Shown in pieces: positions 4,138 through 62,794 of a stretch of DNA of 64,000 nt. The notes beneath the pieces were generated by a model. It made no database searches. It was not told the DNA's origin and saw only the letters and a list, made by a program, of their open reading frames with translations. The DNA comes from Buxus sempervirens (lineage: Eukaryota > Streptophyta > Magnoliopsida > Buxales > Buxaceae): positions 9,336,221 through 9,400,220 of the forward strand of contig OX387192.1 in the NCBI GenBank assembly GCA_947561395.2, given 5' to 3'. Each line of letters opens with the position of its first letter. Position 1 is the stretch's first letter. The position numbers were made by a program, and so were the translations under genes.

Positions 4138-4275
4138 ACCGTATACACAGTACGGTCCAGCCCTGCCCGTATTTAAATTACGGGCAAGCTGTGACCGTAT
4201 GGCAAACACGGGCGAGCCTAGCCCGTGTAACTAATACGGGCAAGCCAGCCCGTGTACCAAATGCGGTTTTACGGA
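4138..4275. promoter_or_regulatory. Array of ACGGGC/ACGGTC words in element A leader
   Basis: At least seven short words of the type TACGGGC, GCCCGTA/GCCCGTG, TACGGTC and GACCGTA occur within about 130 bp, in both orientations. The same words cluster in the LTR U3 of A and B, in B's leader, and ahead of both antisense genes of B. The regulatory role is inferred from position and repetition only. Confidence 0.6.
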
Positions 4276-4429
4276 ACCCTGTTATATTTTTCCAGTTTTT
4301 AGTGGTTTGATCACTTTAATTGCTCATCCAAACATACGGTTCACCCATTGCAGAGCTTCTAAACTGTCCCAAAGTGGACCTTGGCCTTTTTGCTAAAACA
4401 TATGCTTGGGAGGGCACATGTACCCTCCA

Positions 4430-5070
4430 AATTGACACCATACTCAAGAATATGGTACCCTTTTATTGACTCTTACATGAACCTTGGGTAGGATTGATTC
4501 TAAACAGAGTTAGAAACTCTTCCTATGTGCTGTACCAATTTTAAAAACATGTATATTTTGGGACCAATTTTATCCCGAACCAATGGGCACCATGACACCC
4601 CTATGACATGAAAATAATGCAAAACAATAGGATTACCTTGTTACCTTGTTTACTTTGAATATAGCATCCGCATTATGCCCTGGTTTGTAAGCCATGCACA
4701 CGGCCTTCCCACAATCATACAAACCCATATCCCCACGTAATTGTATACTTTAGCCAAAAACGTGTAACTCCACCTTCAAGCGTAGGGGTTTTGGGTTTTG
4801 GCTTAATGGCAACTTAGCACTCAAGCCTAGTGATGACCAGAATCCTAGATCCACATTATCATCACATCATTAGCTCAAAGTTCTAAGGTGAATGTTTTCA
4901 CTTTCGCTTTCCGAAGTATCGACCTCGTTGCGCCAAGCTACACACATTCGGGTTCAACTTCCTATAGGTTAAGGGTAGGCCGTGTAAAAACAAAAGGTGC
5001 ACAGTGCATTGTAAAAATAGGGTGCATTCACAACGTCCCAAACCCTTGCCACTCTTTTCGCAGCCATGCA
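4430..5070 (-). other. Conserved leader block of element A
   Basis: Untranslated leader sequence with clear nucleotide similarity to 41200-41880 in element B and 23160-23790 in element D. It includes the segment around gaatgttttcactttcgc and cgccaagctac. A short open frame occurs here in A and B, but the matching DNA in D is read in another frame, so conservation appears to be of nucleic acid rather than protein. The stretch from 5070 to 5470 is AT-rich leader with no other signal. Confidence 0.6.
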
Positions 5071-5471
5071 TAAACAACCCAAGGCATAATAGGAAAGCAT
5101 ATTTAAAATAAACAAGTAAATAAAGCAATCCTATAACACCCAAAACATGTTCATAAAAAAAATCATCTATTATGCAAACATATGATCATGTTATACACCC
5201 AAAATCATCATGGAGGTCATGCTGAAAATTAAAACATGCTATCATAAAAATATAGCAAGAAATAAGCATGGTTCAACCAAACGGACCTCCCCTACGCATG
5301 TTTGTAGAAACAATCCTATAAATCAAAATTAAGCATGTTTCTACTCCCATGAATTCTTAAGCAATAATTCAGATTTAAAACATACCCAACATGCTCAAGA
5401 ACACAAAATAGGAAGCAAATCCAAAAATATCAAAAACATGAACTAAAACACCAAAAGGCTCAAATTCACAA

Positions 5472-5492
5472 GTCCCCAGCAGAGTCGCCAGT
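5472..5492 (-). other. Primer binding site of element A (tRNA-Arg type)
   Basis: Directly inside the LTR the minus strand reads actggcgactctgctgggga. It contains TGGCGACTCTGCTGGGG, which is complementary, with one mismatch, to the 3' end of plant tRNA-Arg(ACG) as I remember it (CCCCAGCGGAGTCG plus CCA). This primer is typical of Tat/Ogre elements. Confidence 0.85.
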
Positions 5493-6885
5493 TGTGAGAC
5501 ATGGGAAAAAATCAATTTAATGATTTCCTCAATCATCACACGGGATTATATAAAACAAAGAGTCGCCACCATTCAATTTAGGTGTGAATGGACACCAAAA
5601 TATTAAAATAAGCACAAAAGGCAATTTTTAGGGCAAAATATCCCTCCTAAAAAAAAACAACCAGAGATGGGTAAGGGGATTAAGTTATGAACAGGGGAAG
5701 GTGTTAGGCACCCCTATTCATCCACACAAGGTGGTTGCCAGGTATTTGTTCATGTTAAAATAAAGGAAAAAGCTTGCTATAAAAATCACACAAAATCACA
5801 AAAAAGAAAAATATATGGTTTTTTTCATATGAATATTCTGATTGATCCAGAACTATCAAATATGATCATACCATTCCTAGGGTTTCATGATCAAAACAAA
5901 ATTGAGATAAAATCAAATAAACTCAATTTAAAGTGAAAAATCCAAAAATTTGGCTTCAAGTCAAAATTCTAGAAATCTGGAAAAATATGATTTTTATAAA
6001 ATATTTCAAAATTTAACTTGAACAGTCCAGGACATAGATAAAGCCCAAATTTCACATTAAATCTGAAAATCAAAACCAAAAAATACCCACGTTGATGAAG
6101 AACATCAAAAGGGGAGAATTTAGACCGTAGGGTCTTCTCTCAATAATGAAAAACAATTTAAAAACCATATCATGAAACCCTAGAATTTATTTTCAGGCTT
6201 TTGGATTCAGATCTACCATATTGATCATGATAAATCCAAGATCATAGCCTAAAATCACAAAAATCGCAAAAACCGTGCTGTAGGTGCAAAAGTGGTGAAA
6301 ATCCAAATTTTATCAAAAAGTGGGGATCTCATGCTATAAACATCATAGATTCATGTTATTCATTCAGATATATCATAAAAAGCATTAAAACATGATCAGG
6401 ATATTCAAAATAGCCACATCTCACAAATTAGAGCACATGGGGGTCTACCCTACGGATCCACCTGTTCCCCTTTTCCCCTAGTTCTCTCTTCACATTTTAC
6501 GGCTAGAGAGACTCTTGAGGTACTTGGAGATAGGTTTGGTTACACAAACACAATCACAGGCCTTATTCTATGAAAGAAAAAAACAGATATGGGGTTCTAT
6601 TCTAGGGATCCACCTGTTCCCCTTTCCCCTAGTTCTCTCTTCACGTTTTACGGCTAGAGAGACCCTTGAGGTACTTAGAGACAAGTTTAGGAATACAAAA
6701 ACAGATATGGCCTTATTCTACAGCAATAGAGATGATCCTATTACTTCTAAAATTGAAGACAGAAAATAAAAAGGGATAGGGGACTTACCTGGATTGAGCA
6801 GGCAGAGCAGCAGGGATTCCTTTCCTTCTCTTGGAGCTTTTGATTCTTCAAAATTTCGTGGCCCTAAGCTAGAGGAGAGAGCCTC

Positions 6886-7077: not shown

Positions 7078-7200
7078 TCGCACGTGTCTTCAATGCCCGT
7101 GAATTCACTACGGTCCAATCGTGACCGTAAAGTTTTCACGGGCGCGCCTGTCCGTAGAGAGAATGCGGGCGCGACGGGACCGTGAAGGAAATACGGGCAA
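7078..7200. promoter_or_regulatory. ACGGGC/ACGGTC word array in U3 of element A LTR
   Basis: Words such as acggtcc, gaccgta, cacgggc and tacgggc are packed into about 120 bp in alternating orientation, roughly 200 bp upstream of the TATA box. They match the arrays at 39100-39215 and 61090-61205. Confidence 0.6.
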
Positions 7201-11514: not shown

Positions 11515-11676
11515 GTATCCGACGTATCAGACCGAATACATTGAGATTTCTTTGTATCCGGCATAACATGCCGGATACACATGGTCCCTTTTGTATCTGG
11601 CATACTTCATTGGATATGAATAGGATCTTTTGTATCCGATCTGAGTTGTCGGATACATTAAAAAATGCTATAAATG
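11515..11676 (+). promoter_or_regulatory. GTATCCG word array and TATA box before the DUF7745 gene of element D
   Basis: GTATCCG and CGGATAC words, often as inverted pairs, repeat about eight times between 11515 and 11660. TATAAATG follows at 11669-11676 and the start codon at 11787. The same words form the U3 array of D's LTR (27135-27300). The spacing from array to TATA to ATG looks like a promoter; binding by a factor is inferred. Confidence 0.65.
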
Positions 11677-22560: not shown

Positions 22561-22849
22561 TTATTGCTTAGTTTTCTCAGTTTTCAAGTTCAAAAGCTTG
22601 ATTGAAACATGTTTTGAATTGAATTGGTATCAAAAAATATGACACCTTGGTTCCTTCTTTGAGTTTCAAAATTAGGTTAAATCCTGAAAGAATATTTTAT
22701 TTTATTTTATTCTTTTATTTTATTTTATTTTTTTTATTTTGTATTTTTTGAACATTTTTATGTTCTTTTCGGGGTGCCTAAGGATTATCCACAGTGTTTT
22801 AGGCATTTTATTCTGAAAATTTGGGCTGAAAAACCAATTTGTGCATTTT

Positions 22850-23005
22850 TTGAATGTATTCGGCATGAAATATTGACTAAAGCTATGGCTTATTGTATCT
22901 GATACAAATGATCGAAAACACGCATAGGCCTTTGTGACCGATAAAGTATGCCAGATATGAATAAGACTCTTCTTATCCGACCTGAGTTGCCGGTTAATGC
23001 CGAAA
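22850..23005. promoter_or_regulatory. GTATCCG-type word array in element D leader
   Basis: Diverged copies of gtattcggc, gtatctgata, tatccgac and gccgg words occur in the leader. They are weaker than, but of the same kind as, those at 11515-11660 and 27135-27300. The position mirrors the ACGGGC array in the leaders of A and B. Confidence 0.5.
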
Positions 23006-42019: not shown

Positions 42020-42165
42020 CTCCGTAAAACCGTATTTAATACACGGGCTGGGCTCGTCCGTATTAGTTATACAGGCGAAGCTCGCTCGTGAATTTCATAC
42101 GGTCACGGCTCGCTCGTAATTTGAATACGGGCAGGGCTGGACCGTACTGTGTATACGGTTTCCAC
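42020..42165. promoter_or_regulatory. ACGGGC/ACGGTC word array in element B leader
   Basis: cacgggc, ccgtatt, tacggtc, tacgggc and gaccgta words lie between the primer site and the tandem array, matching the array at 4138-4275 in A. Confidence 0.6.
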
Positions 42166-42294
42166 GGAAAATTCAATTTTAATCAGTTTTTCCCACTAAA
42201 TCTTATTCCTTTAACCTTTAAATAATGATAAAGGGAAATGAGTTTGAATAAAATGCTTCAAAAAAAAAATAAATGAATAAAAACAAATGTGAGA

Positions 42295-43050
42295 GAAAAT
42301 CCTTTAGGCCTCTGAAAGCCTTTGAATTTCAGACTTTTTCTCAAAAACTCCTTGGGCCTCTGAAAGCCTTTGAATTTCAGACTTTTTCTCAAAAACTCCC
42401 TGGGCCTCTGAAAGCCTTTGAATTTCAGACTTTTTCTCAAAAACTCTTTGGGCCTCTGAAAGCCTTTGAATTTCAGACCTTTTTCTTTTGGGCCTCTGAA
42501 AGCCTTTGAATTTCAGATCTTTTGGGCCTCTGAAAGCCTTTGAATTTCAGACCTTTTTCTTTTGGGCCTCTGAAAGCCTTTGAATTTCAGATCTTTGGGC
42601 CTCTGAAAGCCTTTGAATTTCAGATCTTTTGGGCCTCTGAAAGCCTTTGAATTTCAGCCCTTTTTCTTTTGGGCCTCTGAAAGCCTTTGAATTTCAGCCC
42701 TTTTTCTTTTGGGCCTCTGAAAGCCTTTGAATTTCAGACCTTTTTCTTTTGGGCCTCTGAAAGCCTTTGAATTTCAGATCCTTGGGCCTCTGAAAGCCTT
42801 TGAATTTCAGATTTTTTTTTCTCAAAAACTCTTTGGGCCTCTGAAAGCCTTTGAATTTCAGACTTTTATCAAAAATCCTCGGGCCTCTGAAAGCCTTTGA
42901 ATTTCAGACTTTTCTCAAAATATCCCTGGGCCTCTGAAAGCCTTTGAATTTCAGACCTTTTTCAAAAAAAACCCCCCGGGCCTCTGAAAGCGTTTGAATT
43001 TCAGATTATTTTCTCTCTATTGTTGGGACCTGTTGGAAGCCCTAGAATAT
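42295..43050 (+). repeat. Leader tandem array of element B
   Basis: About 17 copies of GGGCCTCTGAAAGCCTTTGA plus ATTTCAGA with variable T-rich spacers, followed by one tggaagccctagaatattcc word. Same unit as in A on the opposite strand. A poly-A and caaaaaacaaaaa stretch follows to 43100. Confidence 0.95.
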
Positions 43051-43259
43051 TCCAACAATTGCAAAAAAAAAAAAACAAAAAACAAAAAACAAAAAAGGAA
43101 GCAAATAAAGAAAAAATCCAAACTCGTGTTCACCCAGCTTGCACATAGGCATTCCTAGGCATGTGAATGAGATTAATTGGGCACTGATATTTTTTCTTTT
43201 ATTTTGTGCCAGGTACTAATACACTTGCAATCATAGCTCCTGTAACCAGATCAAGAGCT

Positions 43260-45460: not shown

Positions 45461-46900
45461 AAAGAGTGAGTTCAATGTTGTCGAACAGTTGAACAAAGTC
45501 CCTGCCCAGATCTCAATACTTGGCCTATTGTTAAATTCTGAAAAACATAGGGACTCCTTGTTAAGGATACTCCAGGGGGCCCATGTGCCTAAAAATATTG
45601 AACCAGACCAACTAGGTCGGATGGTTGGGCAAATATTATCCCACAGTGTCATAACTTTTTCTGAGACTGAAATCAGCCCAGCAGGGTACCATCATGTAGA
45701 CCCATTGCACATAGCTGTACTCAGTAAGGGTTGCATGATAGCCCGGGTCTTGATTGATAATGGGTCGGCTCTCAATGTCTGCCCATTAGTAACCTTTGTT
45801 AAGCTCGGTCTGGAGCAAAACAAAATCAAACAGAATGGAAGAATCATAAGAGCATTTGACAGCTCTAAAACACACTCCCTAAGGGAGGTTGAACTGCTGG
45901 TCACAATTGGACCGTATATTTTTAACATCACATTTGAGGTGATGGATATACCTGCAGCCTTCAACCTACTCCTAGGAAGGCCGTGGATTCATACGGCTAG
46001 GGCTATACCATCTACCCTCCACCAAAGAGTCAAATATATCAAAGGGCAAAAGGTGATCACTGTCCTAGCCGAAAATTTGGTTCCCCCCATGTGGTCCCCT
46101 GATGCACCCTACATAAACATGGAAATGACTGCTGATAAGATGGCATTTCACTCTTTCCAATTTGAAACTGTTAATTTCATACCTGGGGGGTATCAGGAAA
46201 AAGAAGGAAAGTTAACCTGTGCTGAGAAGATGGTCAAGAATGTGCTGGAAAAGTACAACTTTCACCATGGAAAAGGTCTGGGGGTTAACCTGCAAGGAAG
46301 GATAGAACCAATAAAGGTTAAGAAGATGGTTCATAGCGCAGGATTGGGGTCCAAGCCGAGGAAATGGAGAAGTCAGAAGGAAATAGAAGACATAAAATTC
46401 CCACACATCAGGGAAACTTTTCCTAAGCTTTCTCACATGATTCAGCTGTCTCCTCCTGAGGATCAGTCCAAACCCCCATACTATAACATCAATCCATTCC
46501 AGAAACCCAACTCCTCAACCGTACAACCATATGTTCCACCTCCACCTCCACAAGCATTGGGTGGGCCTGGGCTACATACAGAACAGGAGCAGGACTTTTC
46601 TGAGGACCTTGGAGCATTCTTTGCCATGACAGAAGGCAACCAAGAAGAAGTAGCAGAGGAGCTACCTTTTATTGATTGGGCTGCAGTAGAAGTTCCATCC
46701 GGAACTGGCCCTACAGAAGAAACAGGAGACGCAACTCACCCAGTATTGGTGATTTCAGATGCAGACCCTGAGCTTGAGGAGCAGGCTTGTATCCCTGCCC
46801 CAGATTTTTTTATTCTGAACAATTGGGAGGAAACTCCCCTTACTTTTGAAGCCGCGTTTGTTTGGCAAACAAACATGGCTTCCAAAAAAAAACTCCATTA
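45460..46900 (+). CDS. Element B protease and G-patch-like region (fossil)
   Basis: Aspartic-protease core VLIDNGSALNVCPL and LLGRPWIHTARAIPSTLHQ (about 45740-46020), then HHGKGLGVNLQGRIEPIK, a G-patch-like segment (about 46260-46320). An acidic linker with NNWEETPLTFEAAFVWQTN leads to the RT part. Confidence 0.88.
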
Positions 46901-49190
46901 GTGGAATGCCTTTTTCCTGAAGGTTTCAATGAGCCTTCGTCTTCAGGGAAAGATTTTGTAGAAGGCTCTCAAAAAACACAAAAAGATTTTTCAATTTTTT
47001 CTAGAAAAGATAAAGTTTTCAAAAAGGTCCAAACCATTTATGAATCATATAAGCAAACGGAATTGAATCAGGATGAGTATGACTTCGACCTTGAGCTCGA
47101 ATTTGACCTAATGGGGGTTGAAGAAGAAACCGAGGACGAAGAAAACGACCCTCCAAAGGAAATCACATATCAATTAGAGCGTCATGAAAAGGGGGTCCAA
47201 CCCAATATTGAAGAGACCATATCAATAAACCTAGGGACCGAAGATGACCCAAAGATAGTAAAGATTGAGGTATGCTTATCTGAGGTACAGCGGGATGAAA
47301 TGATACGGTTCTTGGCTGATTATAAAGATGTATTCGCATGGTCGTATCGGGATATGCCAGGTTTAGACACGAACATGGTTGTGGACAGGCTACCCATTCT
47401 ACCAGATGCCAAGCCAGTTAAGCAGAAACTGAGAAGATTAAAACTTGAATGGACATTGAAGGTCAAAGATGAAGTGGTTAAGCAATTCCAAGCTGGATTC
47501 TTAGCGGTCTCCACTTACCCTGAATGGCTTGCAAATATCGTGCCAGTACCAAAGAAGGATGGAAAGGTCAGAATGTGTGTAGACTACAGAGATTTGAATA
47601 AGGCAAGTCCAAAGGATGATTTTCCACTTCCACACATAGACATCTTAGTGGACAACACTATCGTACATAGTCTGTTCTCATTCATGGATGGGTTTTCTAG
47701 GTACAATCAGATTAAGATGGCTAAGGAAGATCAAGAGAAGACAGCTTTCATCACACCTTGGGGTACCTTCCATTACACTGTCATGCCATTTGGACTTAAG
47801 AATGCCGGGGCAACCTACCAACGGGCCATGACAGCCTTATTCCATGATATGATCCATAAGGAGATGGAGGTTTATGTGGATGATATGATAGCCAAATCAT
47901 GTGAAGAAGAGGACCACTTGATCAACTTGAAAAAGGTGTTTGACCGGCTTAGGAAATATAGTCTAAGGCTCAACCCTGCGAAATGTGTCTTTGGGGCTAC
48001 ATCAGGAAAATTGTTAGGCTTTATAGTAAGCAGGAAGGGAATTGAGATTGACCCAGCTAAAGCCAGAGCAATCATTGAAATGCCATCACCTAGAACGGAG
48101 AAGGAAGTTCGTGGTTTTCTTGGAAGGATTCAGTACATAAGCCGGTTCATAGCACAGCTCACCGCCATCTGTGAACCAATTTTCAAACTTCTAAGAAAGA
48201 ATAACCCGACAGTCTGGAATGACGATTGCTAAGAAGCCTTTGACACAATAAAGGAGTATTTATTGAATCCACCTGTGCTAGTGCCACCAACTCCAGGAAG
48301 ACCATTAATTCTATACTTGTCAGTTTTGGAGACATCAATGGGGTGTGTCTTAGGGCAGCATGACGATACAGGCAGAAAGGAGAGGGCGATTTATTACTTA
48401 AGAAGGAAATTTACAGAATATGAAGCAAAGTATTCCCCTTTGGAAAAGACTTGTTGTGCATTAGTGTGGGCAACTCAGAGGCTGAGGCATTATTTCCTTA
48501 GTCATTCCACCTTATTGATATCCCAAATGGACCCTCTGAAGTATCTATTTAAGAAACCAGCTTTAACTGGCAGAACAGCAAAGTGGCAGTTGTTACTCTC
48601 TGAATTTGACCTCACCTATATCACACAAAAAGCCATTAAAGGTCAAGTCATAGCTGATCACTTAGCTGCACACCCTTTACCAGAATACCAACCTCTGAAG
48701 ACTAATTTCCCTGATGAGGCAATCCTGTTTACTGAAGAAGAAGAAGGGGAAAGCTCATGGCAAATGTTTTTTGATGGAGCCGCCAATATGAATGGAAATG
48801 GAATAGGTGCTGTTTTGATCAAGCCAGACGGGGCACACATCCCGATCGCAGTGAAGTTAAGGTTCCAATGCACGAACAATATAGCAGAGTATGAAGCATG
48901 CATAATTGGGTTGCAGGCTGCCTTAGACCATGAAGTAGAGGAACTTGACGTATATGGGGATTCGAGTCTTATCATCTTCCAAACAACTGGTGAATGGAAA
49001 AGCAAGAATCACAAATTGATCCCCTATCACCAGTATTTGGAAGAAATAAGCACCAAGTTTACTCGAATTTCCTTCAATTATATGCCAAGGACCAAAAACC
49101 AGTTTGCAGATGCTTTAGCCACATTGGCTTCAATGGTCAGTATGCCAGAAGGTGTTGATATTAGACCATTGGAAATTGAAGTCAGAGATG
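46900..49190 (+). CDS. Element B reverse transcriptase and double RNase H region (fossil)
   Basis: RT motifs VRMCVDYRDLNKASPKDDFP, PFGLKNAGATYQRAM and the catalytic YVDDMIAKS (about 47560-47900), then connection and RT-linked RNase H (about 48260-48660). An archaeal-type RNase H follows (MFFDGAANMNGNGIGAVL, NNIAEYEACIIGLQ, VYGDSSLII; about 48760-49130). The second RNase H places the element in the Tat lineage. Broken. Confidence 0.92.
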
Positions 49191-50490
49191 AACCAGCTTA
49201 CTGCCTTGTTCTAGAAGAAACCCCAGAAGAAGAAATACCATGGTTTCAAGACATTAAGAACTTCCTAAATGATCGGAGCTTGACAGAAAATGTTACTTCT
49301 ACAGATAAAAGAACAATACAAAGATTAGCCGGTCAGTTCTTACTAAGTGGTGGTCAGTTGTACAAAAGATCACACAATGATATACTACTCAGATGTGTTG
49401 CAAAGACTGAGTCAGAAAGGATAGTTGAAACGATACATGGAGGAGTGTGTGGACCCCATATGAATGGGCATATGCTTGCCAAGAAGATTCTACGATTGGG
49501 ATATTACTGGTCAACAATGGAGCATGATTGCTATATACACGTTAAAAGGTGTCATTTATGCCAAGTGTACGCGGATAACAAGAACGCACCCCCAAGTGAA
49601 TTACACAGTATGACATCTCCGTGGCCTTTTTCTATGTGGGGTATAGACGTCATTGGGATGATCTCTCCAAAGGCATCAAATGGACACAGGTTTATACTTG
49701 TGGCAATCGATTACTTCACCAAGTGGGTAGAGGCAGCTTCATATGCAAACATTACAAGTAGCCACGTTTTGAAATTCTTAAAGCACAATATCATTTGTCG
49801 CTATGGTGTGCCAAGTGTCATAGTATCAGACAATGCTTCAAACCTTAAGAACAAGGACATGAGAAAGATGTGTGAACAGTTTCAGATTACCCACCACAAG
49901 TCAGCTCCGTATAGACCAAAGATGAATGGGGCAGTGGAAGCAGCAAATAAGAATATAAAGAAGATCATTCAGAAGATGGTAGTAAGTTTTAAAGATTGGC
50001 ATGAAATGCTGCCACTTGCTCTACATGCTTACAGAACCTCAATTCGAACTTCTACAGGGGCAACCCCGTACTCTTTAGTATATGGAATGGAAGCAGTTTT
50101 ACCAGTGGAAGTGGAAATACCTTCACTAAGAGTGCTAATGGAAGCTGAAGTAGAAGAAGCTGAATGGATACAATCAAGACATGATCAACTCAATCTAATA
50201 GAGGAAAAGCGATTAAGGGCGCTTTGTCATGGCCAATTGTATCAGAAGAGAATGGCCAGGGCTTACAATAAGAAGGTGAAGCCCAGAACTTTCCAAGAAG
50301 GAAATTTAGTATTGAAGAAAATCTTACCCTTTTTGGAAGATCCTCGTGGAAAGTTCAAACCAAATTGGGAAGGACCTTATGTGGTCAAGAAGGTCCTATC
50401 AGGGGGTGCTCTCATCTTAACAGAAATGGATGAGAAGGATTTTCCTGAGCCAATTAACTCTGATGCAGTAAAGAGATATTTTCCATGAAT
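49190..50490 (+). CDS. Element B integrase region (fossil)
   Basis: HHCC domain (HGGVCGPHMNGH, KRCHLCQVYAD), core with GIDVIG, VSDNASN and NGAVEAANK as the D-D-E residues, then GKFKPNWEGPYVVKKVL. The region ends just after DAVKRYFP. Confidence 0.92.
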
Positions 50491-51405
50491 GAATATTACT
50501 AGGAAATGATCTAAGGCCATTTTTCCTTATATCCCAAAATTTGAATCCCTAGTCAAGCCAATTTGAGCCTGTTCGTCTTTTTTGTTAAACCTAAACTAGA
50601 CTTACAATCTTATACTAGGGCAAGGCCCATAGGGGCGAAGCCAATAGGGGCAGAAAAGAAAAAAGAAAAAAATAGGGGCAAATGAAAGCCAAATACAAAA
50701 GAAGGGGAACGGGATTGAATTCATCATGATTGTAAGTCCGGTTGACCCATTTTCACACTTAGAAAATTTTGAGCCTTTAATACCTTTTCTTTCATAAATC
50801 GAGCTTAGCCTTTGTTTCGTCCTATTATTAAGCCCTCGGTGATTTTAGTATATTCATTCAACTTTCAGAGTAAGATTGGTGATGACGGAATGCAGAAGCC
50901 GACCCTAGTGAAAACCGTAATTGGCACTAGGGGCAATAAGGGCAAAAAGAAAAAAAATAGAAAAAAAAAATCAAAGGTTAAGTTGATCATGTGGTCCAAA
51001 TGTAATCAGCATAAGCACTGGAAACTGAGCAAATTAGCAGGGTCAATCATGAAGGTAAAGCCATTAGGGGATGATTCTAAAGGTCACGGGGTAGACGGAT
51101 TTGGTCTCTCCCTATTGCTTGGACTACCCTTTTCATTATTCAACCTGATTTTAATTCCTTTAATTATAGGTGATTAAGTGTTTTGGATCAACTTTCAAAA
51201 AAAAAAAAAACAAAAAACAAAAACTATACTTTGGCCAGTGATGAGAAATCAAATACTTTTTCATAAAACTTCTGTTTTTACAAGCATCTGAGAATTCTGA
51301 GGCCAATAATATAAAACCTATTTTTGAATTAAAACTATTATATTTCCACTAATGGAGTTTGCTTTTGTATAAAAGTATGAAAAGAAAAAAAAAGAGATAA
51401 AAGAA
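50491..51405. other. Spacer between pol and antisense genes of element B
   Basis: Non-coding, aligns with 13464-14426 in D. Short frames here (for example 50812-51177) are low-complexity lysine-rich readings and are not called. Confidence 0.5.
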
Positions 51406-53180
51406 TCTAATCCCTACTCCCTAACTGCTCCTCAAGTTCCCTAATCCTAGCTGCCTGAGTTGCAATGATTCCAGAAGCACCCTCTGCATCAGGATCACTC
51501 AAAAAGGAGATGACCTCATCTGAAAAAGAATGCTTGATCTTCAACGCCCTAAGGTCGGCCAAGGAATCTTGATATTTCTTCCGCATCACTCGGACTTCAA
51601 AGCGACGAGCTTGCCTTTGTTCTTCAAGTTTCTTCTCCATGGCAATGCGGCCAGACTTCTGCTCTTCAAGTTTCCTCTCCAAATCAATGACTTTTATCCT
51701 AAGCTCTTGTGCTTCTCGTACCCATATTTGTTGAAGCCGCTTATGAGTTGCCCTTTCAGACTCCAGAATGTCCTCATAGGTAGGAGGAAGAACTGCAGGA
51801 GGATCCTCTGGTACTGGGGCATGACTCTGCACCTGCTCTTTGATCCAAAAGTGATAGTCCTTCACATGGGACTCAGAAAAGACAGGACCCCGCAGAAAGC
51901 GAACATAGGACCACTAATTCATTAATTGAGCATTTAGCCCCATGGTGGCTGATGTAAGTGGTCCTACAAGGCTCTCATAGCCAGTTGGGATCATAATTCC
52001 CTGGGTCGCTCCAAACTGCCGAAGAACCCTCAAAGGAAGATAGAGAACAGCAGATTTCAAGCCTGCCAGGACCAGAAAGTTCCTATCTCTGAAGTTGATC
52101 ACTGTCTCTGGATTGGGCTGATAAGTGCCAGGCCATCTCACTTGATCATCCTGGAGAGTACCCAAGAAAGTGAACCATCCCTGCTTGCCGCCTTGGATAT
52201 TAGGACAACCCCTGTGGCTCATCAGAACAGGAACTTTCAACCTTGGAAAGAAGCGGCGAGTTATCTCTTCAACTTGGCTCAGGTGGTCAAGCAACCAAAG
52301 TTGCAGAAAAGGGGAGAATTTCAATTTATGTCAAAAAAAAAAAAAAGAAGAAGAAAAAAAAGAAAAAAAAAAGAGAGAAAAAAAAGAAAGAAAAAAAAAA
52401 GAAAGAAAAAAGAGAGGAAAAGAAAAGAAGAAGAAGAAAAGAAAAAAAAAAGAAAAAAATATATGTATATTTTTTTACCTGTAGGATAGGGGCGCAGGCA
52501 AGGAAGCGTTTCTTCTTTCTGAAATAACAGTCAGTAAGGCCCTGGTATATCTCTGCTAAGATCATAGGGGCCAACCTCTCACGTTCCCTAACCTGGCAGA
52601 TAACTGAGATGAGAGCCAAGTCAACCTGGTCATCACCCCGTGGAAAAAGCAACTGGTTGACCACTACCAAAGTCAATGCATTAAACCTGGCATCCTTGTC
52701 CCCACTCCTTAGAAGTTTTTCAGTCAAAAAGGTCTTGGACAAGGTTAATAGGGTATCTGAACTCCCTAAGTCTTTCTTCCCTATACCCAGGAATGTAGAG
52801 GCCTCCTTTTTGTAACTAGGCTTTAGGGGTGGGTTCACAACTTTTTCAGAAAATTTTAAGCCAAGGATGGTTTCAATTTCTTCTATGGTAGGAGTCATCT
52901 CTTTGTCATCAAAACGGAAGAGATTCAGCTCAGGTACCCAATGTCCAATCAAAGCTTCAATGATTTCCCACTTAAAGGGAATTTTAGGGAGTTGTAGGAT
53001 ATGCCCTAAGTGGATGGAATCCCAGCGAATCTCCTCATCAAGGGTCGTGGAGTTAACCCATCTATCGTAGAAGGAGTCCACAATAGTCTACCTGGTAAGA
53101 TTAGGAGGTTTTGATCTAACAGGGTGTTTTGCAGGAGGAGATTCAACGGCAGGAGAAAGCGGCGTAGGGGAAGCCATGGA
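51405..53180 (-). CDS. Captured DUF7745-like gene in element B, antisense to pol
   Basis: On the minus strand: FYDRWVNSTTLDEEIRWDS, GHWVPELNLFRFDDKEMTPT and IEETETILGL-like text (IEEIETILGLKF). Next come VVVNQLLFPRGDDQVDLALI and, after an AT-rich intron-like tract (52320-52480), a coiled coil with WVREAQELRIKVIDLERKLE, ending SFLSDPDAEGASGI. Same layout as 11787-13463 in D. Function unknown. Its introns could persist because they are on the strand opposite to the retroelement RNA. The copy shows some decay. Confidence 0.65.
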
Positions 53181-53268
53181 AGCGCCAAAGAAGCCAAGGA
53201 AAGCGAGAAAAGACGTGCTCAGGGAGTTTTCAAACTATTAAAAGTGTCACAATGACGCTCCCCATGAG

Positions 53269-53440
53269 TTTATATAGAAAAAATCGTTAAGGCAGTAAAA
53301 TCCGTAAATAGAATACGGGCATATGGCGCCCGTATAAAGAATACGGACAAACTGTGACCGTGAAAACTTTACGGGCACAGTGCGCCCGTGTTCATATTAC
53401 GGGCACAGCTTGCTCGTAGTCTAAGTACGGTTACTTCCGA
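53269..53440 (-). promoter_or_regulatory. ACGGGC/ACGGTC array and TATA box before the DUF7745 gene of element B
   Basis: Words tacgggc, gcccgta, gaccgtg, tacgggc, gcccgtg, tacgggc and tacggtt occupy 53290-53440. TATATAAA on the minus strand is at 53269-53276, about 95 bp before the likely start codon. The geometry matches 11515-11787 in D, although the words differ. Confidence 0.65.
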
Positions 53441-53637
53441 AAAATGCAAAAAATTGGGCAGTTTCAATTTCTTTGCTTCACCTGTCCCTGTTTTAACATT
53501 CATCATGTAATAAGAACTGAAAAGAAAGAAGAAAAGAACACAAATGAATGAAAATTAAACTCCTTTTATATATATGAGAATGTTTACATCACTTTTGTCA
53601 AAGATACAAATGTATACGAAAAATCCTAATCTACTGT

Positions 53638-56488
53638 CTATGCAGGTCCGCCCCTACGGCCACGGCCTCGTCCTCTGCCCCGACCACGGCCTGAAGATCG
53701 CCTGCGCTCAAAGACATGCCGCACAATATTGCAGGCAGTGCTACGAGTCATCCTGCTCAAAACAGACTGAATATCATACCACATATATAAAGGCACAAGG
53801 CCAGCAGTGGGATGATCAGGAGGGACGTACCCTGAAGTATCTACATATCCCGTAGACTCGGGATCAGAATCAGTACGGGAAGAATCCGTAGAAGGATCAG
53901 TAGCAGCAGGCGTCTCCTCTACAGCCTCCATAGCAGGACCAACAGGAGCAGATGTCCCAGGTACATCAGCATCAGGACCAGGCTCTACAGGATCAGCTGT
54001 AGCCTCCTCCATCACCACGGCCTCCACAGCAGGCTCTACCACAGCGGCATCCATGGCCGACTCCATATCTACATCCGCAGATGCCACAGGAGCAGTCTCA
54101 GCAACTGGGGCCGACTCTGGCACATCCTCAGCAGCAGGTGCAATATCAGCCTCGACCTTAGGCTCTGCTGCAGGAACCTCTACCGACCTGGGAGAAGTCA
54201 CAAACTCCACCTGTGCCACAGAAAAAACCTCATCACGAAGATGCATGGGCACGGGTGAAGCAGGTGAAGAAGGGCCGGCTGTGTCCTCCTGAAAAGAGAA
54301 GAAATTTCAGTCAGAACAAGACAAACTAATACAAAAGCAGGAAGGGAAATAAAAGAAGAAAATAACCTGAGTATGAGATGGACCCGCCTGGTCCTGTGCA
54401 TCAGATGGACCCTCCTGGCCCTGTGCTCTGGCTAGCTGTACCCGGAGGTCTGAGACCGTGATATAGAGGGCGTCCCGCTCAGCAATCGCAGCATCTCGCT
54501 GGCACTCTAGATCAGCATATCGAGACCGGATCTCTACCAACTGAGCCTCCTGAAATAGAAAAGAAAGGGTCAGAAAATGTCAAGATCAAATGAAAATAGA
54601 AAGGTGAAAAGGAAGAAGGCATACCGTAGTGTCATAAGCCCTAATCACTACCCCTCCAATCTCAGTGACTCCGCCACGGACAGGCATAGGTGGCATAAGG
54701 CACCCAACTGAAGCTCGCCTGAACCAGGCATCATAGTCACCCTCCTCCAATAATGTCTCTGCCTTAGTCCAATCTAGGAACTGGGCAGGATCAACAGGCA
54801 TAGGAGGGTAGGAAGGAGTAGTATCTGGCAGGATGGCAGGAATCCGCGGCTCTCCTACATGCTGAAAGAAGAAGCGCTCGCCGCAGTACCAGATGCTGCC
54901 CATCTGACCAATAAAGAACTAGTATCTCTGTCGTCTCTGGTCAGGGACAAATGCATCATCTCTGGCTGCATGCAGGGCCAGCACCTCATGAATGTCATCC
55001 ATCCTGGGGACAAACAGCTGAAAATCAGAGTAGGATATTAGATATGTGATTCAGGAAGAAAAGGAAAGAAGAAAGAAGAGGAATTAAAATAGATTACCTC
55101 AGACCGGTATAGCCTGTCCAAGTGGGCCCGGGCGGACCTAGGACGACTCTTTTCAGAGTCGTGCTCTACATGACACCATCTACGTGCCATGGGATACGTC
55201 TCCTCAGACATTGTAGGGGTAGGACGGAAATAGAGTATATAAACCCTAGCAAAGAACTGCAGAAAGAAGAAAAGATCAGAAGAATAGAAAAAGAGAAAAA
55301 AGAAAGAAAGAGAGAGAAAAAGAAGGGAAATAAGATTCACCTGCAAAAAGGGCCAGAAGAACCTGCACCCGACTCCAGCCCCTCTGGAAGTAGAGAGGCC
55401 GCTCACTGATCGGCGCAGACCGGCCAAAATAGTACCAAAAATGAGCGGGCCCCATGCATACCTCCTCGCTCGATGCAGATCTCCCAGTAAGCTCAGAAAA
55501 TAAGGACTAACCGAAGTCGTGTCCTCAGGGAAGAAGCAAGATCCCATCATGTACAGAAAAAGGAATCGGAAGGCGTATGGGAAAACATGATCACCGGAGG
55601 CAAGCTGGCCAAACTGCCTCGCCCTGAAAGTCTCTCTCAACCATGTCAGAGACAATCTCGTTCTCCCTCTATCCCATGCCTCAGGAGGCAGCACGATATA
55701 TCCAAGATAAGCAGTGACCTCATCAGCCTCTAGCATCGCCATCTCAGGAATAACATCACCAATCATCCTAATCCCGGTGATAAGGGTGAAGTCAGAAGGC
55801 CGGATCCCGATCTCAATATCTGGGAAGTGGAAGCTCAAAGTCTCCGGGAAGAATCTCTCGAGCGGTGCAGCAATGAGGGCCCGATCCATGCGCACGTCCG
55901 GAATGGTAATAAACATGCCAAATCCATATAAGCCTAACTCCCAACGGTAGGCTGAACTGCAAGCCCCCAAGAATCTAATAAAACTGGCCCAGCTCCCTCT
56001 ATAGTGGGACATAGGATACTTTAAAGGGATATCCGCCCTAATACACGCTGAGGGATGAGTCCTCAAGCCATGCAAAAGATCGGTATCCCTAATCTGGGCA
56101 GCCACCTCCTCAGGGATCTCAACCCTGGTCCTGGCCTCATCTCTGCCACGGCCTCCTCTACGGCCCTCATCATGGCCTACATCTCTGCCTCCACCTTGGC
56201 GCCTGCTACGGCTCCTATCTCGGCCTGAAGCCTCAACGGCCGGCTAAAGAAGCAATTGAAAAGGAAAGGATCAAGGGGATGTTTTTGAAAAAGAATATTG
56301 AATTCAGAAGAGTTAGAGAATACCTCTGGGGTCGCCTCACGCAAATCACCAGAAGGAAGATCTGGGATATCAGAATCCGAATCCCTCTCAGCCCTCGAAG
56401 ATGAGGCCACGTCCGCATGATCCCGCCTAACCCGCGAGGAGGAAGGCTCATCTGCAGGATCCCTAGAAGCTGATCGAAGGCGGGCCAT
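53638..56488 (-). CDS. Captured plant mobile domain (PMD) gene in element B, antisense to pol
   Basis: Minus-strand multi-exon gene. The first exon starts MARLRSASRDPADEPSSSRV. The next is Arg/Gly/Asp-rich and leads into the PMD core (about 55370-56110; YPMSHYRGSWASFIRFLGAC, RPSDFTLITGIR, GSCFFPEDTTSVSP, GPLIFGTILAGLRRSVSGLS). Further exons hold a coiled coil (about 54430-54540), a long acidic Pro/Ala/Glu-rich part (53780-54250) and an RGRGRGRGRGRR C-terminus ending near 53638. gt/ag introns with pyrimidine tracts separate them. The architecture equals that in D. PMD proteins act in transposon silencing in Arabidopsis; here the role is unknown. Confidence 0.75.
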
Positions 56489-57934
56489 CTACGGTTCAAA
56501 TCAGGGAGATGTTCATTATTCTTGTTAAAATTTTATTGCTTGATTTTCATGATTACCAGGTTTACAGAAAAAAAGGGAAAATGGAAAAAGTGATTTAGAT
56601 ATTCCTGACTAAATCAGGAATTGATCAAAGAAGATTATCCTTAGGAAATTCAGTTATCTTATAATGGTTTGTTTTAATTACTTATGCCTAATCATCTTGT
56701 TTTGTTTGGTTTCAGGACAGGCCAAGTAGATGACAACAAGGAAAAAAACAAAATGATGCTCTAAATGGTGAGATGGGATTGTAAATGAGGAAGGTATCCT
56801 AAATCATTCAAGTTGAAGTGAGATATAGCAGCATCTTATGTGTGCGCACCCCGATTTCGGTCGCACGACGAGGCTGTGCGCAAAACGATGCGTGCCTCGG
56901 GATTTGTTTGGAGTCGCCACTGCCTGATGGGGTGCAGGCAGACACCTGGGTGCCTAAGTTCTTCTACTAAGGCTTTTGGTCTGCGGCTTTTGAGATTCTA
57001 AGTAGGGGCTCGGTTGCGGTCTGGGGAAGTCCGTAGACACCCCAGTCCACCCCATCAAGTGACGGCTCCCATAGGTTTCCCTAGTTTTGAGTCAACTTTG
57101 GTCTCTCACTCACCCGATTCCTATTCCAGCATGCAATTTTGATTAAGTCTGGCGGGATCGCCAAAGTGGTGTGGGTCCCTTTACTTGATTTTATCTTTTT
57201 AATTAAAGTGATGTGAGTCTGATTGGGCGGGCCCCGTTGGAAGGCCCACAGATTCCTTGGTGGGCCAAGTGTGGCCCATATGTCCCCTTGGTGGGCCTTA
57301 ATCTAAACCTGAGAGGCCCTTTGGGCTTTGGTTCAAATGAACTGATTTTTATTTGAAGTTCAAATTGGATTAGCTAAGTGGATTTCATGCCAAAAGTTGG
57401 CCGGGATTGCTTTGTGGGCCCTTGAGTGGACCCCACAATTGGTTGCCAAGTGATTTTGATTTTATCTTTCTTATCTGTGTCAAAATGGGCCAGGCATTGG
57501 GCTTGGGCTTGAAAGCCCAAGGCTTCCTGAATTAGGGTTTGGAAACCCTAAGTTGGTCGGGTTCATAGGCTTAGTGGGCCCGATAGGCCCTACCCGTAGT
57601 CTCGGCCAAACCACGCATTTCATGCATCAATTTCACAAGTCCGGTTCGGGTGGACCGCCTGAAGTTTGGCCCGCCCGGTTTAATCGGTTAATTTCACTTA
57701 TCTTGATTAAGTTGCATGCATACATGTTTATTGGGCCGGGTGGGCCCCGTTGGAAGGCCCACTGGAAATCAAGTTGGACCGAGGGTCCAAGTCCCATGTT
57801 GGGTTTCCGGGTGACCCGGAAACCCTATTGGTTCATTTGGCTCGATTTAAGAATGCCACCCATACTTAGCAAAAGTAGTTACAGAAGTGGGCGGACCGAA
57901 AACAGCAAAAAAACACGAAAAATGAAGTGGGCGC

Positions 57935-58130
57935 CAGGTGGGCGCCAGGTGGGCGCGAGCTAGGCGCCAGGTGGGCGCGAGCTCAGCGCACCCAAAAAGA
58001 AGTGGGCGCGAGCTCGGCGCGAGGTGAGCGCGAGCTTGGCGCGAGGTGAGCGCGAGCTCGGCGCGAGGTGAGCGCGAGCTCGGCGCGAGGTGGGTGCGAG
58101 CTCGGCGCGAGGTGAGTGCGAGCTCAGCGC
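57935..58130. repeat. GC-rich minisatellite in the solo LTR
   Basis: About eight to nine copies of a 20-22-bp unit, gcgcgagctcggcgcgaggtg, slightly varied. In one frame it reads as a repetitive Arg/Ala-rich peptide, which I regard as incidental. A short (TA)n tract is at 58456-58476. Confidence 0.9.
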
Positions 58131-59211
58131 AGACCCTGACTCTCTGTTTTTTCTCTCTAAACTCCATTTCCGACTGGTTTTAAGCTCTGTAATTGGTTTC
58201 TGGGGATCCTTAGAACCCCAGCAGACCTCTAAACACAGATGGAAATTAATCTAACCTAACGGATCCTCACCACTCATCACTCAAATCTCTCTGGAAAGCT
58301 ACAAATCCAAAACAATACATTAACAGAACATACAAAGAAGGGAACAGGGGGCTTTATTCGGGATACAAGAGATGAGATAAGAGGGAACATGCTCCCCTTC
58401 GAATCAAGCAAGCAATGACAAACCAGATGTTAGAGATGCATGGGAAGCCTGATTTATATATATATATATATATATTGAACAAAAGAAAGTGGAGAGCTCA
58501 CCTTGGTTCTAGGTCTCTGTAGAGTAGGCCGGAGGGTTCCTTGGAGCCAACGAGCAGCTGCCGGAGCCCCCTTCTTCTCGCACCAACAACAAGATCACCT
58601 TCGGGTTTGACGAGGAAGAAGAGGAAGGGAAGAAACGAGTGTGTCTGGTCTTTTCTTCGAATTACCAAACCCAGAAAAATGTCCAACCGAAACTCTCCCA
58701 CCCAAATTTCCGAACCCCCCCAACAATCCGAACCAACAAAAAAATGCAGAACCCCTGCAAATGAAGGGGGATGCTGCTTTTATAGAAGGGGGCGGGGTAT
58801 CCGCCGACTTCGGCGCCCAGCTCGCGCCCACTTGCTGTCGCTGGGCGTGAGCGACAAAATCATTAAAACATTAAATGCCGCCGCGGGTTTGTTTAAAAAA
58901 TCCGAAAATTAAGATATAGCCCCTGGGATATTTTGGTTTAATATTATTTTATTCAGATATTTTCAAATATTTTCAGATTGGTCCCTGGGATATTTTGAAT
59001 GTTCGGATATTTACGGATTTGATCCCCGAGATATTTTCCTGCGCAACTCACCACGTGTGCAGCTTTTTGCCACACGCGCAGTTTGTCGGTTTTGCTGCTC
59101 GGGAATTTTGTCAGCTCATATTTTCTTCATCCGGGCTCCGATCCGGGCAAACTCAGTTGCGTTAGAATCGTATTGGAGCCCTCTATCCAATGGCATGGGG
59201 TAAGCACCTGG

Positions 59212-59500
59212 ATCGGATTTTAGCAGAAAGTCAACTTTTGGCTTCGCCCAAGTTTGACTGCCCGCAGAACCTTCATCCGGACTCCGATTCCTGCAAACTC
59301 AGTTGCACTGGAATCATGTCGGGATCCTCTATCCAATGATATAAAGCAAGGCCTCTGGATCGGATTTTGGCAGAAAGTCAACTTTTGGCTTCGCCCAAGT
59401 TTGACCGCCCGCAGAACCTTCATCCGGACTCCGATTCCTGCAAACTCAGTTGCGTTGGAATCGTGTCGAGGTTCTCTATCCAATGATATAAAGCAAGGTG
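59212..59500. repeat. Direct duplication in the solo LTR
   Basis: Two tandem copies of about 150 bp containing cagaaagtcaacttttggct and catccggactccgattcctg, with a diverged third copy upstream (59110-59215). Confidence 0.85.
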
Positions 59501-60204
59501 GCCAAATATCACTTAATCAAAAAGTCAACTTTTTGTCCCCTCGGGGTTTGACTTTCTGCCAGGGTTTTGAGCTGTTTTGCTGTCTTTTAGCACATTTTTT
59601 TTTGTTTTCTTATTTTCTTTTCTATTCTTTTCTTTTCTTTTTTTTTCTCTCTTTCTTTTTTTTTTTTTTTTTGGTTTGATCAAAATTTGGGTGCTTACAT
59701 TATGCATAAAGACAAAATCAGAAATATCATGCAAAGTCAGGGAAATCAGTTGGCCAGGAATTTGGTCTAATTTGCCAATAACAAAAGGGAATTAGAATTT
59801 CAATTGGAAGCATACAAGATCAAAGCAGAAATCAAATCTAAATAAGAAAAGTTACAGGCATGTGGCACTTGGAGGAGAAAACAGTAAATCACATATATGG
59901 ATTAAGTCTTCATCCCATCAGGAACCTAAACTCAAAGATTGCTAGCACAAGAGCAAATTTCAGACAAACCAAAATGAATCAGGATTTACAACATAAATCA
60001 TAGCATGATGGAGCTTATTTGTTCATAAATCAATTATCAAAACAATAACAGATTCGGCATATATTGGGCATCAAGATCATAGCATAACAAAGTTCGAATG
60101 GCAAGAAGATCAGAGCAAATTCATGCATAAGCTAAGCTAGTTCAGTCGTATGGTCACTTGCAATGTATTGGTTGCAACAGGAATGAGTGTTTCGGCCACT
60201 TACC

Positions 60205-60539
60205 AGGAATGATCAAGAAAGAAATACAAGTAAGCAGCAGTCGAACCTTGATCCACCAAGCTCCTAGAGAAAAAGAAGTCCACGAATTTGAGCAAGTCAA
60301 TGGAGAACCTTCGAACACTGTTCGGATGGTTGCAGAAGAAGGTAATAGTCGCCCAAGGAAAAAGGCAAGTGGTCGCCGAAGATGGTCGCCGGAGAACAAC
60401 AGGGATCGTCGGAGATAGAAGTCGGACTATGGAAGAAGAGAAGAAAACCGTAGAAGAAGATACGGTCGGGGAAGAGTTAGGGCTTGAATGCGAGCAGAAG
60501 AGGAAAAATTCGCGATCGCGGTCTTAAGAAGAGAGTAAA
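60205..60539 (-). other. 5'-UTR exon of B's PMD gene
   Basis: On the minus strand this stretch lies between the word array and the donor at 60204. It has CCGGCGACC-type composition like 7303-7572 in D. No coding feature is credible. Confidence 0.4.
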
Positions 60540-60650
60540 ATCCGTAAAATCAGTACGGGCATCAGATGCCCGTGAAAGTAATACGGTCCCGTTCGCCCAT
60601 GAACAATCTACGGGTAGCATGTATCCGTAAGGAAAATACGGGCAAAGCCA
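60540..60650 (-). promoter_or_regulatory. ACGGGC/ACGGTC array before the PMD gene of element B
   Basis: tacgggc, gcccgtg, tacggtc, cgcccat, tacgggt, tccgta and tacgggc lie in 110 bp upstream of the PMD gene. This is the fourth type of location for this word set in the element. Confidence 0.6.
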
Positions 60651-60977
60651 AAAATAGCATATTTTATTATTTTCTCCACACTTTTCAGGAGATTAATGTC
60701 CATATTAGTTGTAAGTTGCAAGGATTGCCACCATACTCACTTTTGTTTAAAAATTTTGTCTCAAATCTCACTTCATAGCCACAAGAGCTCAGTGAGAGGA
60801 GAGAGAAGGATTTGGCCCTTAAGTTGAGGGACTTCTAGCAAATCTTCCAAAAATAAATTCTTTCTATAAAATCATCCATTTAGTCCTTGCAAAGTGCAAT
60901 TGGTTAGACAAAAATCTCAGAAAGTGCAATTGGTGGGTCTTTTTGCTCTTTGCTTGTAATTGATTCCAATTACCAGC

Positions 60978-60990
60978 AAAGAGGGGGCAG
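60978..60990 (+). other. Polypurine tract of element B
   Basis: aaagagggggcag stands one base before the 3' LTR, where plus-strand cDNA priming occurs in this class. Confidence 0.85.
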
Positions 60991-60991
60991 C

Positions 60992-62794
60992 TGTAGACAC
61001 CCCAAATTGCACTACAGAATGAGAAAGTAATAAAAACACGTAATTAGAACTTAAAACAGGTCAAAAATGCCTAAAAATCAACTAAGCAGGCTTTGCCCAT
61101 ATTTCATTCACGGGCCGGTCACGCCCGAGATCGCTCTACGGTCAGGCGCGCCCGTATTGAAAATACGGGCACCGTTGGACCATAACTCATTTACGGTCAC
61201 TAAAGACTCGTGCGAGTTTTATCCTTCTCTCGATTTCCGAGCTTTATCTTTAGTCCAATATATCTCTAAATGAGCGAATTACGTATTTTATTCGCTGAAG
61301 CCACCTTGGTTGGCTATGGATGGGCATTATCTTGTGTTTAACTCAAACTGAAACTCTATCTTGCCAAACCTTGGACCAACCATACCCCTGGGTTTGCCTA
61401 TAAATAGAGGGCCTTTCCTCAAGCAAAAGGCCACGAAAATTTGAAGTCTAAGAAGCTCCAAGAGAAGAAGAAGAACCCCTGCTGCTTTGCCTACTCAATC
61501 CAGGTAAGTCCCTTTTCCCTTTTATTTTCTGTCTTCAATTCTAGATGTAATAGGATCATCTCTATTGCTGTAGAATAAGGCCATATCTTTTGTACTTGTA
61601 TTCCTAAACTTGTCTCTAAGTACCTCAAGAGTCTCTCTAGCCGTAAAACGTGAAGAGAGAGCTAGGGGAAAAGAGAACAGGTGGATCCCTAGAATAGAAC
61701 CCCATATTTGTTTTTCCTTTTTTTCTAGAATAAAGCCTCTGATTGTGTTTGTATAACCAAACCTATCTCCAAGTACCTCAAGAATCCTCTCTAGCCGTAA
61801 AACGTGAAGAGAGAGCTAGGGGAAAAGAGAACAGGTGGATCCGTAGGGTAGACCCCCATGTGCTCAAATTTGTGAGATGTGGCTGTTTTAAATATCATGA
61901 TCATGTTTTAATGCTTTTTATGATATATCTGAATGAATAACATGAATCTATGATGTTTATAGCATGAGATCCCCACTTTTTTATAAAATTTGGATTTTCC
62001 ACATATTTGCACCTACAGCACTGTTTTCGTGATTTTCGTGATATTAGGCTAAGATCTTGGATTTATTATGATCAATATGGTAGATCTGGATCCAAAAGCC
62101 TGAAAGTAAATTCTAGGGTTTCATGATGTTGTTTTTGAATCGTTTTTTATTATTGAGAGAAGACCCTACGATCTAAGTTCTCCCCTTTTGGTGTTCTTCA
62201 TTAACGTGGGTATTTTTGGTTTTGATTTTCAGATTTAATGTGAAATTTGGGCTATATCTATGACCTGGACTATTCAAGTTCAATTTTGAAATATTTTATA
62301 AAAATCATATTTTTCTAGATTTCTAGAATTTGACTTGAAGCCAGATTTTTAGATTTTTACTTTAAATTGATTTATTTGATTTTATCTTAATTTTGTGTTG
62401 ATCATGAAACCCTAGGAATGGTATGATCATATTTGAAAGTTCTAGATCAATCAGGCTATTCATATGAAAAAACCATACAATTTTTGTCTTTTTGTGATTT
62501 CATGATTTTTATAGGAAGCCTTTTTTCTTTGAAAAACATGAACAATGCCTGGCAACCACCTTGTGTGGATGAATAGGGGTGCCTAACACCTTCCCCTGTT
62601 CATAACTTAATCCCCTTACCCATCTCTGGTTGTTTTTTTAGGAGGGTTATTTTTACCCTAAAATTGGCTTTTGTGCTTATTTAATATTTTGGTGTCCATT
62701 CACACCTAAATTGAATGGTGGCGACTCTTTGTTTAATTTAATCCCGTGTGATGATTGAGGAAGTCATTAGTTTGATTTTTTCCCATGTCTCACA
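60992..62794 (+). repeat. 3' LTR of element B
   Basis: 1803 bp, TGTAGACACC to TCTCACA. It aligns end to end with the 5' LTR and shares its array (61090-61205), TATA box (61399-61406) and internal duplication. One copy of the transposase frame resumes just after it. Confidence 0.97.

Follow-up and report, generated by a model that had tools for sequence, protein, structure and literature searches.

Why should related retrotransposons carry, at the same places within each element, rows of short inverted words whose sequence differs from one family to the next? The question is raised by a window of 64,000 bp from Buxus sempervirens (contig OX387192.1 of assembly GCA_947561395.2, positions 9,336,221 to 9,400,220), which is made largely of long terminal repeat (LTR) retrotransposons. 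Element B (39003..62794, plus strand), recognized by its LTR pair and domain order, is treated here as an Ogre-type retrotransposon of the Tat clade and carries two antisense genes between pol and the 3' LTR, one with a DUF7745 domain and one with a PMD domain. Element A lies on the minus strand from 7302 leftwards and is a close relative of B; element D, also on the minus strand with its LTR start at 27386, is a more distant one. A preliminary description of this DNA had proposed that each family has its own array of inverted words, placed ahead of every visible transcription unit. We found the observation to be real and stronger than first stated, extending to a third word set and to genome scale.

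Arrays of inverted words in the window

In A and B the words follow the pattern ACGGKC, and clusters of at least four half-sites with no more than one mismatch to TACGGKC were found at the seven positions named in the preliminary description. Element B carries them in U3 of its 5' LTR (39106..39209) and 3' LTR (61095..61198), in the leader 1.1 kb before gag (42028..42160), upstream of the antisense DUF7745 gene (53314..53432), and, 349-438 bp ahead of the 3' LTR, in the stretch that separates it from the antisense PMD gene (60554..60643); A carries them in its leader (4137..4254, minus strand) and LTR U3 (7095..7198). Two further clusters, at 50625-50679 and 50901-50943, hold no exact word, and the reversed sequence, used as a control, gave one cluster of 4. 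The word of D is GTATCCG, which clusters only in the LTR U3 (27144..27285, minus strand, four units with a period of 39 bp) and upstream of the antisense DUF7745 gene (11515..11656); in its reversed control two large clusters appeared, each of them coinciding with satellites. The leader array also claimed for D (22840..22990) has no exact GTATCCG near 22850 and four scattered one-mismatch words. Because leaders elsewhere in the genome keep six words in an 18/21-bp register at the equivalent place (two of them exact in locus L085 and four in L086), we consider the position right and the D copy decayed.

Both words are strongly enriched. The window holds 64 matches to ACGGKC, where 100 dinucleotide shuffles gave 18.5 +/- 3.8, and 15 to GTATCCG, where they gave 2.1 +/- 1.3. 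Within B, 26 of the 33 ACGGKC words fall in the five arrays (553 bp) and 7 in the remaining 23,239 bp, a 156-fold higher density inside, while all 11 GTATCCG words of D lie within the array intervals (435 bp) and none in the remaining 19,648 bp. The words also emerged from motif discovery: when 6-mers were ranked de novo by their number of inverted pairs at distances of 10-30 bp, with satellites masked, the order placed ACGGGC first (11 pairs) and GGATAC second (8), above the maximum of 5 reached in 20 first-order shuffles, which are crude in that masked bases were read as letters. Four more 6-mers exceeded this maximum (AGCTCG with 7; TTCAAA, GATACA and GGCCCA with 6 each), of which only GATACA overlaps the D word.

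The half-sites switch orientation alternately and keep a strict register. The ACGGKC layout runs 7-bp word, 7-bp gap, reverse word, 7-bp gap and so on; all steps in the arrays at 4137-4254 and 53314-53432 are 14 bp except one of 13, and the latter array comprises nine alternating half-sites (at most one mismatch) at eight 14-bp steps. Gaps of the D type are longer, and the steps at 27144-27285 alternate between 18 and 21 bp. The LTR and DUF7745 arrays of D share spacer sequence (74% over 145 bp), and the spacer of unit 1 contains AACTCAG at several array positions. These traces within one element suggest that whole sets may have been exchanged through copying, not one site at a time.

The claim that arrays precede every transcription unit holds only in part. 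In B, the TATA box of the DUF7745 gene (53270..53276, minus strand) lies 38 bp from the array edge, as it does in locus L046, and in D a TATAAAT box (11669..11675, plus strand) lies 13 bp downstream of the array, a distance repeated from the array end in L083. The leader array, 1.1 kb before gag, has no TATA box within 300 bp, and in the B LTR the TATA box lies ~200 bp downstream of the array. The array said to precede the PMD gene exists at 60554..60643 and may belong to the PMD promoter, but 4.3 kb separate it from the PMD frame. Over the whole window, the two strands together hold 124 TATA-like words.

The window also contains satellite-like tandem repeats with a period of ~74-76 bp (3149-4056, 21795-22558, 35486-36066 and 42299-43017), those of A, B and D sitting between the leader array and gag. 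These long arrays are a feature separate from the word arrays.

Word sets across the genome

Twenty LTR starts were picked manually and blind to the words among the first 100 places listed, all of them on contig C1. All 20 have an array within ~300 bp as judged by eye, 4 with ACGGKC, 11 with GTATCCG(G/A) and 5 with a third word, GCGGTT; the arrays of L071 and L074 are decayed. When 32 distinct LTRs were classed (14 ACGGKC, six of which had been found via their words, 12 GTATCCG and 6 GCGGTT), 31 lacked any word of another set, bearing out the proposal that each family has a set of its own. The exception, L071, has one ACGGKC beside two GTATCCG. Some of these LTRs are very similar: L060 and L061 differ at 1 of 300 bases, and L066 and L067, which differ at 3 of 300 and lie 20 kb apart, probably represent the two LTRs of a single element. 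Nested in an ACGGKC-type LTR is one of GTATCCGG type (L019:1328-2446), which matches L063, 20 kb away, at all of its first 300 bases; this suggests one recent insertion, and because of the identity the nested LTR was dropped from the set.

The third set occurs in an element on contig C8, whose GCGGTT arrays occupy the LTR, as two clusters, and the positions before DUF7745 and after pol; a further array on its PMD side lies 344-443 bp outside the 3' LTR start, compared with 349-438 bp in B. With GCGGTT at the LTR, PMD and DUF7745 positions, the proposal that positions are kept while words are exchanged as a set holds for the three of the four named positions that were covered in this element. 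The array just after pol, a fifth position, is clear in this element (L035:3403-3519), and at about the matching place B has the decayed array without an exact word at 50901-50943. A GTATCCGG element on C1 carries four-unit arrays in the LTR (L065), in the leader (L085) and before DUF7745 (L083). Extra arrays, not found in B, were seen in L009, L011, L016, L017, L021 and L055-L058, where they adjoin or separate stretches resembling the window at 56.9-57.25 kb and 59.0-59.55 kb. In five of them (L009, L011, L016, L021 and L057) the array edge is 15 bp from a TATA box on the reverse strand, a distance that is not independent among the five because the copies are related.

The paired geometry of the words is abundant in the genome. 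Exact pattern matches were counted in the 676.5-Mb assembly, with the patterns read backwards as controls; one-word pair patterns are self-complementary, so both strands give the same sites, and these were counted once. TACGGKC-N7-GMCCGTA has 11,813 sites against 6 read backwards, and with the gap widened to N8 the pair has 11 against 3. Outward-facing ACGGKC-type pairs with N7 number 19,345 (0 reversed), GTATCCG-N11-CGGATAC has 30,553 sites (0 backwards) and TGCGGTT-N7-AACCGCA has 964 (0 backwards). Mixed pairs of the first (ACGGKC) and third (GCGGTT) words amount to just 47 + 30 sites, indicating that words of different sets rarely mix. Loci fetched by word-pair geometry, being the first-listed sites and all on contig C1, match the window elements in 15 of 15 cases (12 distinct places) and in 5 of 5.

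Words are better conserved than the spacers between them. Conservation was scored for the ACGGKC and GTATCCG sets, the GCGGTT set (6) being left out. Since six of the 14 ACGGKC LTRs were found via their words, this test was redone on word-blind copies, namely five sequences plus the B reference, excluding B3, L058 and those six. Pairwise column identity for word, spacer and flank was 0.861, 0.640 and 0.816 in the five ACGGKC copies (register from B), and 0.949, 0.690 and 0.882 in the 11 GTATCCG copies compared with D as reference for the register (nothing left out, some pairs from one element); with an 8-bp word the latter values were 0.919, 0.689 and 0.883. Counting the true register, shifts of the word mask that reached the observed difference numbered 2 of 104 for ACGGKC, 1 of 142 for GTATCCG and 2 of 144 for the 8-bp word. 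Word identity exceeds that of the flanks by a small margin, and some copies are not independent. CpG decays in methylated DNA, yet the ratio of observed to expected CpG reaches 1.55 in the B arrays and 1.08 in the D arrays, compared with 0.47 in the remainder of either element. That words outlast spacers and keep their CpG favors selection on the words.

Candidate factors and alternative explanations

What, then, would read the words? Register, conservation and positions fit binding sites of one factor per family, in line with the coordinating factor that had been proposed, and the arrays are very probably binding sites of some protein. Each array would be a row of protein-binding half-sites beside a control region of an Ogre-type element. 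Every family would have a single sequence-specific factor, which would bind the arrays of the LTR, the leader, the DUF7745 gene and, in two families, the PMD side, and would control the element's promoters jointly or keep them free of silencing. We put the chance that this factor is encoded by the element at a little short of even. If so, it would most likely be the product of the antisense PMD gene, with DUF7745 as the second candidate, and the outcome would be activation or anti-silencing rather than repression. The candidate protein would consist of a basic PMD plus an acidic, fast-evolving tail, and words may be replaced as a set via copying of arrays between positions while the regulator changes specificity; such copying leaves the better preservation of words over spacers unexplained. 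That each Ogre family has a private trans-regulatory code, its antisense PMD protein reading its own word at all promoters of its kin and at none of other families, is somewhat less likely than not in our estimate, and we offer this fuller reading tentatively.

Comparison of the encoded proteins lends weak support to an element-encoded factor. When B is compared with D, identity is 86% for RT, 86-95% for the RH/integrase pieces and 81% for DUF7745 but 48% for PMD, and the acidic frame in line with PMD finds nothing in D to match. Against the GCGGTT element, B shows 62% identity in PMD, 77% in DUF7745 and 32% in the acidic frame, which is the least conserved among the antisense frames compared. 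These PMD comparisons cover elements whose words are other than B's; DUF7745 of L046, which has B's words, is 88% identical.

Several results weigh against the proposed explanation as a whole. Fast divergence is not special to PMD: between B and D, two pieces of gag reach 60% and 40% and the frame that follows gag 56-66%, likewise below pol. The faster divergence of PMD may be weak constraint, and the acidic frame is only 51% identical between B and L046, elements with common words. AlphaFold models of DUF7745 (L024 plus 15 relatives) and of the B PMD (7 sequences) reached mean predicted local distance difference test scores of 34 and 38, both too poor to show a DNA-binding fold. As to the promoters, 28 clusters from 16 fetched loci were scanned for 120 bp on both strands, and 18 lacked a TATA-like word, including the GCGGTT arrays that precede DUF7745 in L035, L027 and L054. 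The expected array is also absent from the 842 bp before the 3' LTR of the GTATCCGG element on C1 (L084), where no word was found even at one mismatch and another repeat occupies the stretch. Finally, a de novo scan of 1 kb upstream of 30 DUF7745 loci found no array in 26. The scan requires exact words and recovered a known word in L035 alone, while arrays are present by eye in all four loci with window-like DUF7745 (L027, L035, L042 and L046); since it missed those of L027, L042 and L046, it is insensitive and the 26 are a weak negative. Arrays seem to belong to this Ogre group rather than to DUF7745 genes generally.

The 26 loci in question (L024-L026, L028-L034, L036-L041, L043-L045 and L047-L053) carry a DUF7745 gene without nucleotide similarity to the window, and many have long stop-free frames; 13 were aligned, and their reference is 34% identical to the B DUF7745. 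In L027 the scan hit was another word, a GATCCA cluster 910-789 bp upstream of the DUF7745 match. Clusters of TAAAGA, considered as a fourth word set, were rejected, as they lie beyond the DUF7745 gene and, in L030 (the one checked), in tandem repeats.

The factor could instead be supplied by the host. Host transcription factors would bind the arrays, families would have switched from one host factor to another, and no element-encoded factor would exist. This would account equally well for register, TATA proximity and conservation, and copia elements of plants are known to carry boxes in U3 to which host factors respond. Harder to reconcile with host factors is that the words at several positions change together as a set, that all of the first-listed word-pair loci on C1 (15 of 15 and 5 of 5) are window-type elements with no site in an ordinary promoter, and that the words are not known to match the motif of any plant factor, though no search for such a motif was made. 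We regard a host factor as unlikely, albeit a serious competitor. A repressor recruited by the arrays, whether for self-limitation of the element or as a host silencing factor, would fit all positional data. Host PMD proteins, MAIN and MAIL1, do act in silencing of transposable elements according to the available parts of PMC7156037. A host repressor would, however, give the element no reason to keep the sites; self-limitation stays possible, and we judge repression improbable overall.

Two explanations dispense with a regulator of transcription. If the arrays were functionless minisatellites, spread in the elements by duplication or conversion, the likeness of the D LTR and DUF7745 spacers and the AACTCAG of the unit 1 spacers would follow readily. 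Neutral repeats are expected to drift evenly, whereas here the words outlast spacers and flanks, CpG is retained and the positions recur across families, which makes this account very improbable. Least probable of all, in our estimate, is that the words are stems of nucleic-acid hairpins serving packaging, RNA processing or recombination. Inverted 7-bp words at 7-nt gaps could indeed fold, yet the word itself is conserved beyond pairing, the partners differ at the G/T position in 7 of the 20 distinct inner pairs and in 9 of the 25 distinct outer ones, and inner and outer gaps are fixed alike.

Element content and relation to known systems

B was assigned by its domain content. Its LTRs (39003-40804 and 60992-62794, 1.8 kb each) are 98.4% identical and flanked by a near target site duplication, CATCG/CACCG, judged by eye. 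The sense frames are, in order, gag, a G-patch frame, reverse transcriptase (RT), RNase H (RH), a second RNase H-like domain and integrase (INT); a profile search of window 48233-50488 gave RT_RNaseH at 21-125, RVT_3 at 180-298 and rve at 465-562. We read RVT_3 as the second RNase H (aRH), which accordingly lies between RH and INT, the order reported for Ogre/Retand elements in the available text of PMC6317226. On the minus strand, profile searches identified a DUF7745 (PF24924) exon at 52326..53087, with further pieces at 52330-51407 and the whole gene spanning 51407-53087, and a PMD (PF10536) open frame at 55038..56243 (E=1e-20), which is basic (pI 9.1). An acidic open frame (53638..54306, minus strand, pI 4.3) lies in line with the PMD gene and may be joined to it by splicing. 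TRP28 (PF04195) had no match in five of the six B antisense frames to E=10, nor in the sixth to E=0.01. Because the second RNase H lies between RH and integrase, PMD is present and TRP28 was not found, B is treated as Ogre-type; PMD in an extra open reading frame (ORF), here antisense, is typical though not obligatory for this group, the same source giving 57% of the Ogre elements surveyed.

The 3' end of D falls outside the window, and a continuation beyond A at C15:9314000-9320000 (L081) was rejected, as no similarity was found there. Outside the studied elements, a 170-aa open frame at 34191-34703 matches Pfam dsDNA_bind (E=1e-6) and is possibly a piece of a host gene. The window contains no Rfam families or tRNA genes.

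We found no description of such word arrays, and no paper on DUF7745, in the open-licence literature. The closest parallel is the VANC anti-silencing proteins and their motifs in the VANDAL transposons of Arabidopsis, described in the accessible parts of PMC5735166 and PMC10398659. There too, family-specific short motifs are repeated in non-coding regions and differ between related families, and VANC diverges faster than the transposase (PMC5735166, as far as its available text goes). The values between B and D (PMD 48%, RT 86%, RH/integrase pieces 86-95%) would be comparable if PMD is the regulator, but gag is low as well (60%/40%). VANDALs are Mutator-like DNA transposons, whereas the present arrays lie in an LTR retrotransposon. 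VANC targets are presented as tandem repeats, with 'inverted' and 'palindrom' absent from the available text of PMC5735166, whereas ours are alternating inverted half-sites at a fixed pitch. In the same sources, as accessible, VANC regulators have DUF1985/DUF287 where B has PMD/DUF7745; DUF1985 had no match by hmmscan to E=10 in eight proteins, five of them B antisense frames. Motif binding and demethylation have been shown for VANC in these texts, whereas the Ogre arrays are known here from sequence alone. By analogy, the Ogre array system may work in the manner of VANC with its targets, but neither its domains nor its element type place it within that system.

Other comparisons concern the elements and the PMD. 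Ogre elements with PMD extra ORFs resemble B in both the aRH between RH and INT and the PMD itself; the available text of PMC6317226 lacks the word 'promoter', and hence promoter arrays, and leaves the function of the extra ORFs open. Retand elements likewise carry antisense ORFs downstream of pol and ahead of the 3' LTR, for which a role as DNA-binding regulators has been proposed, and have tandem repeats in that region, but belong to another subclade with a TRP28 domain, and the accessible part of PMC11963269 describes no private promoter word arrays. MAIN and MAIL1 again tie the action of a PMD protein to a promoter motif: in the parts consulted, a motif named DOWN marks the promoters of genes downregulated in the mutants (PMC7156037), and whether the complex contacts chromatin is left open (PMC9899485). 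Both are host genes, whereas the PMD here is element-borne.

Extra ORFs of plant Tat elements have been on record for years, with their function left open in the available text of PMC6317226, and a family-private target sequence makes the pairing of word and protein directly testable. If the private-code reading is true, one genome would hold tens of thousands of sites for several mutually insulated regulators, a system like retroviral Tat or VANC within LTR retrotransposons. Sequence-specific anti-silencing or self-activation would then not be peculiar to VANDAL, having arisen also in a large group of plant LTR retrotransposons. MAIN and MAIL1 have been proposed to derive from transposable-element versions of PMD (PMC7156037, in its accessible part), and sequence-specific regulation would become a plausible ancestral role of the PMD family. 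The paired word sets and proteins would offer a natural set in which to study joint changes of specificity in a regulator and its many sites.

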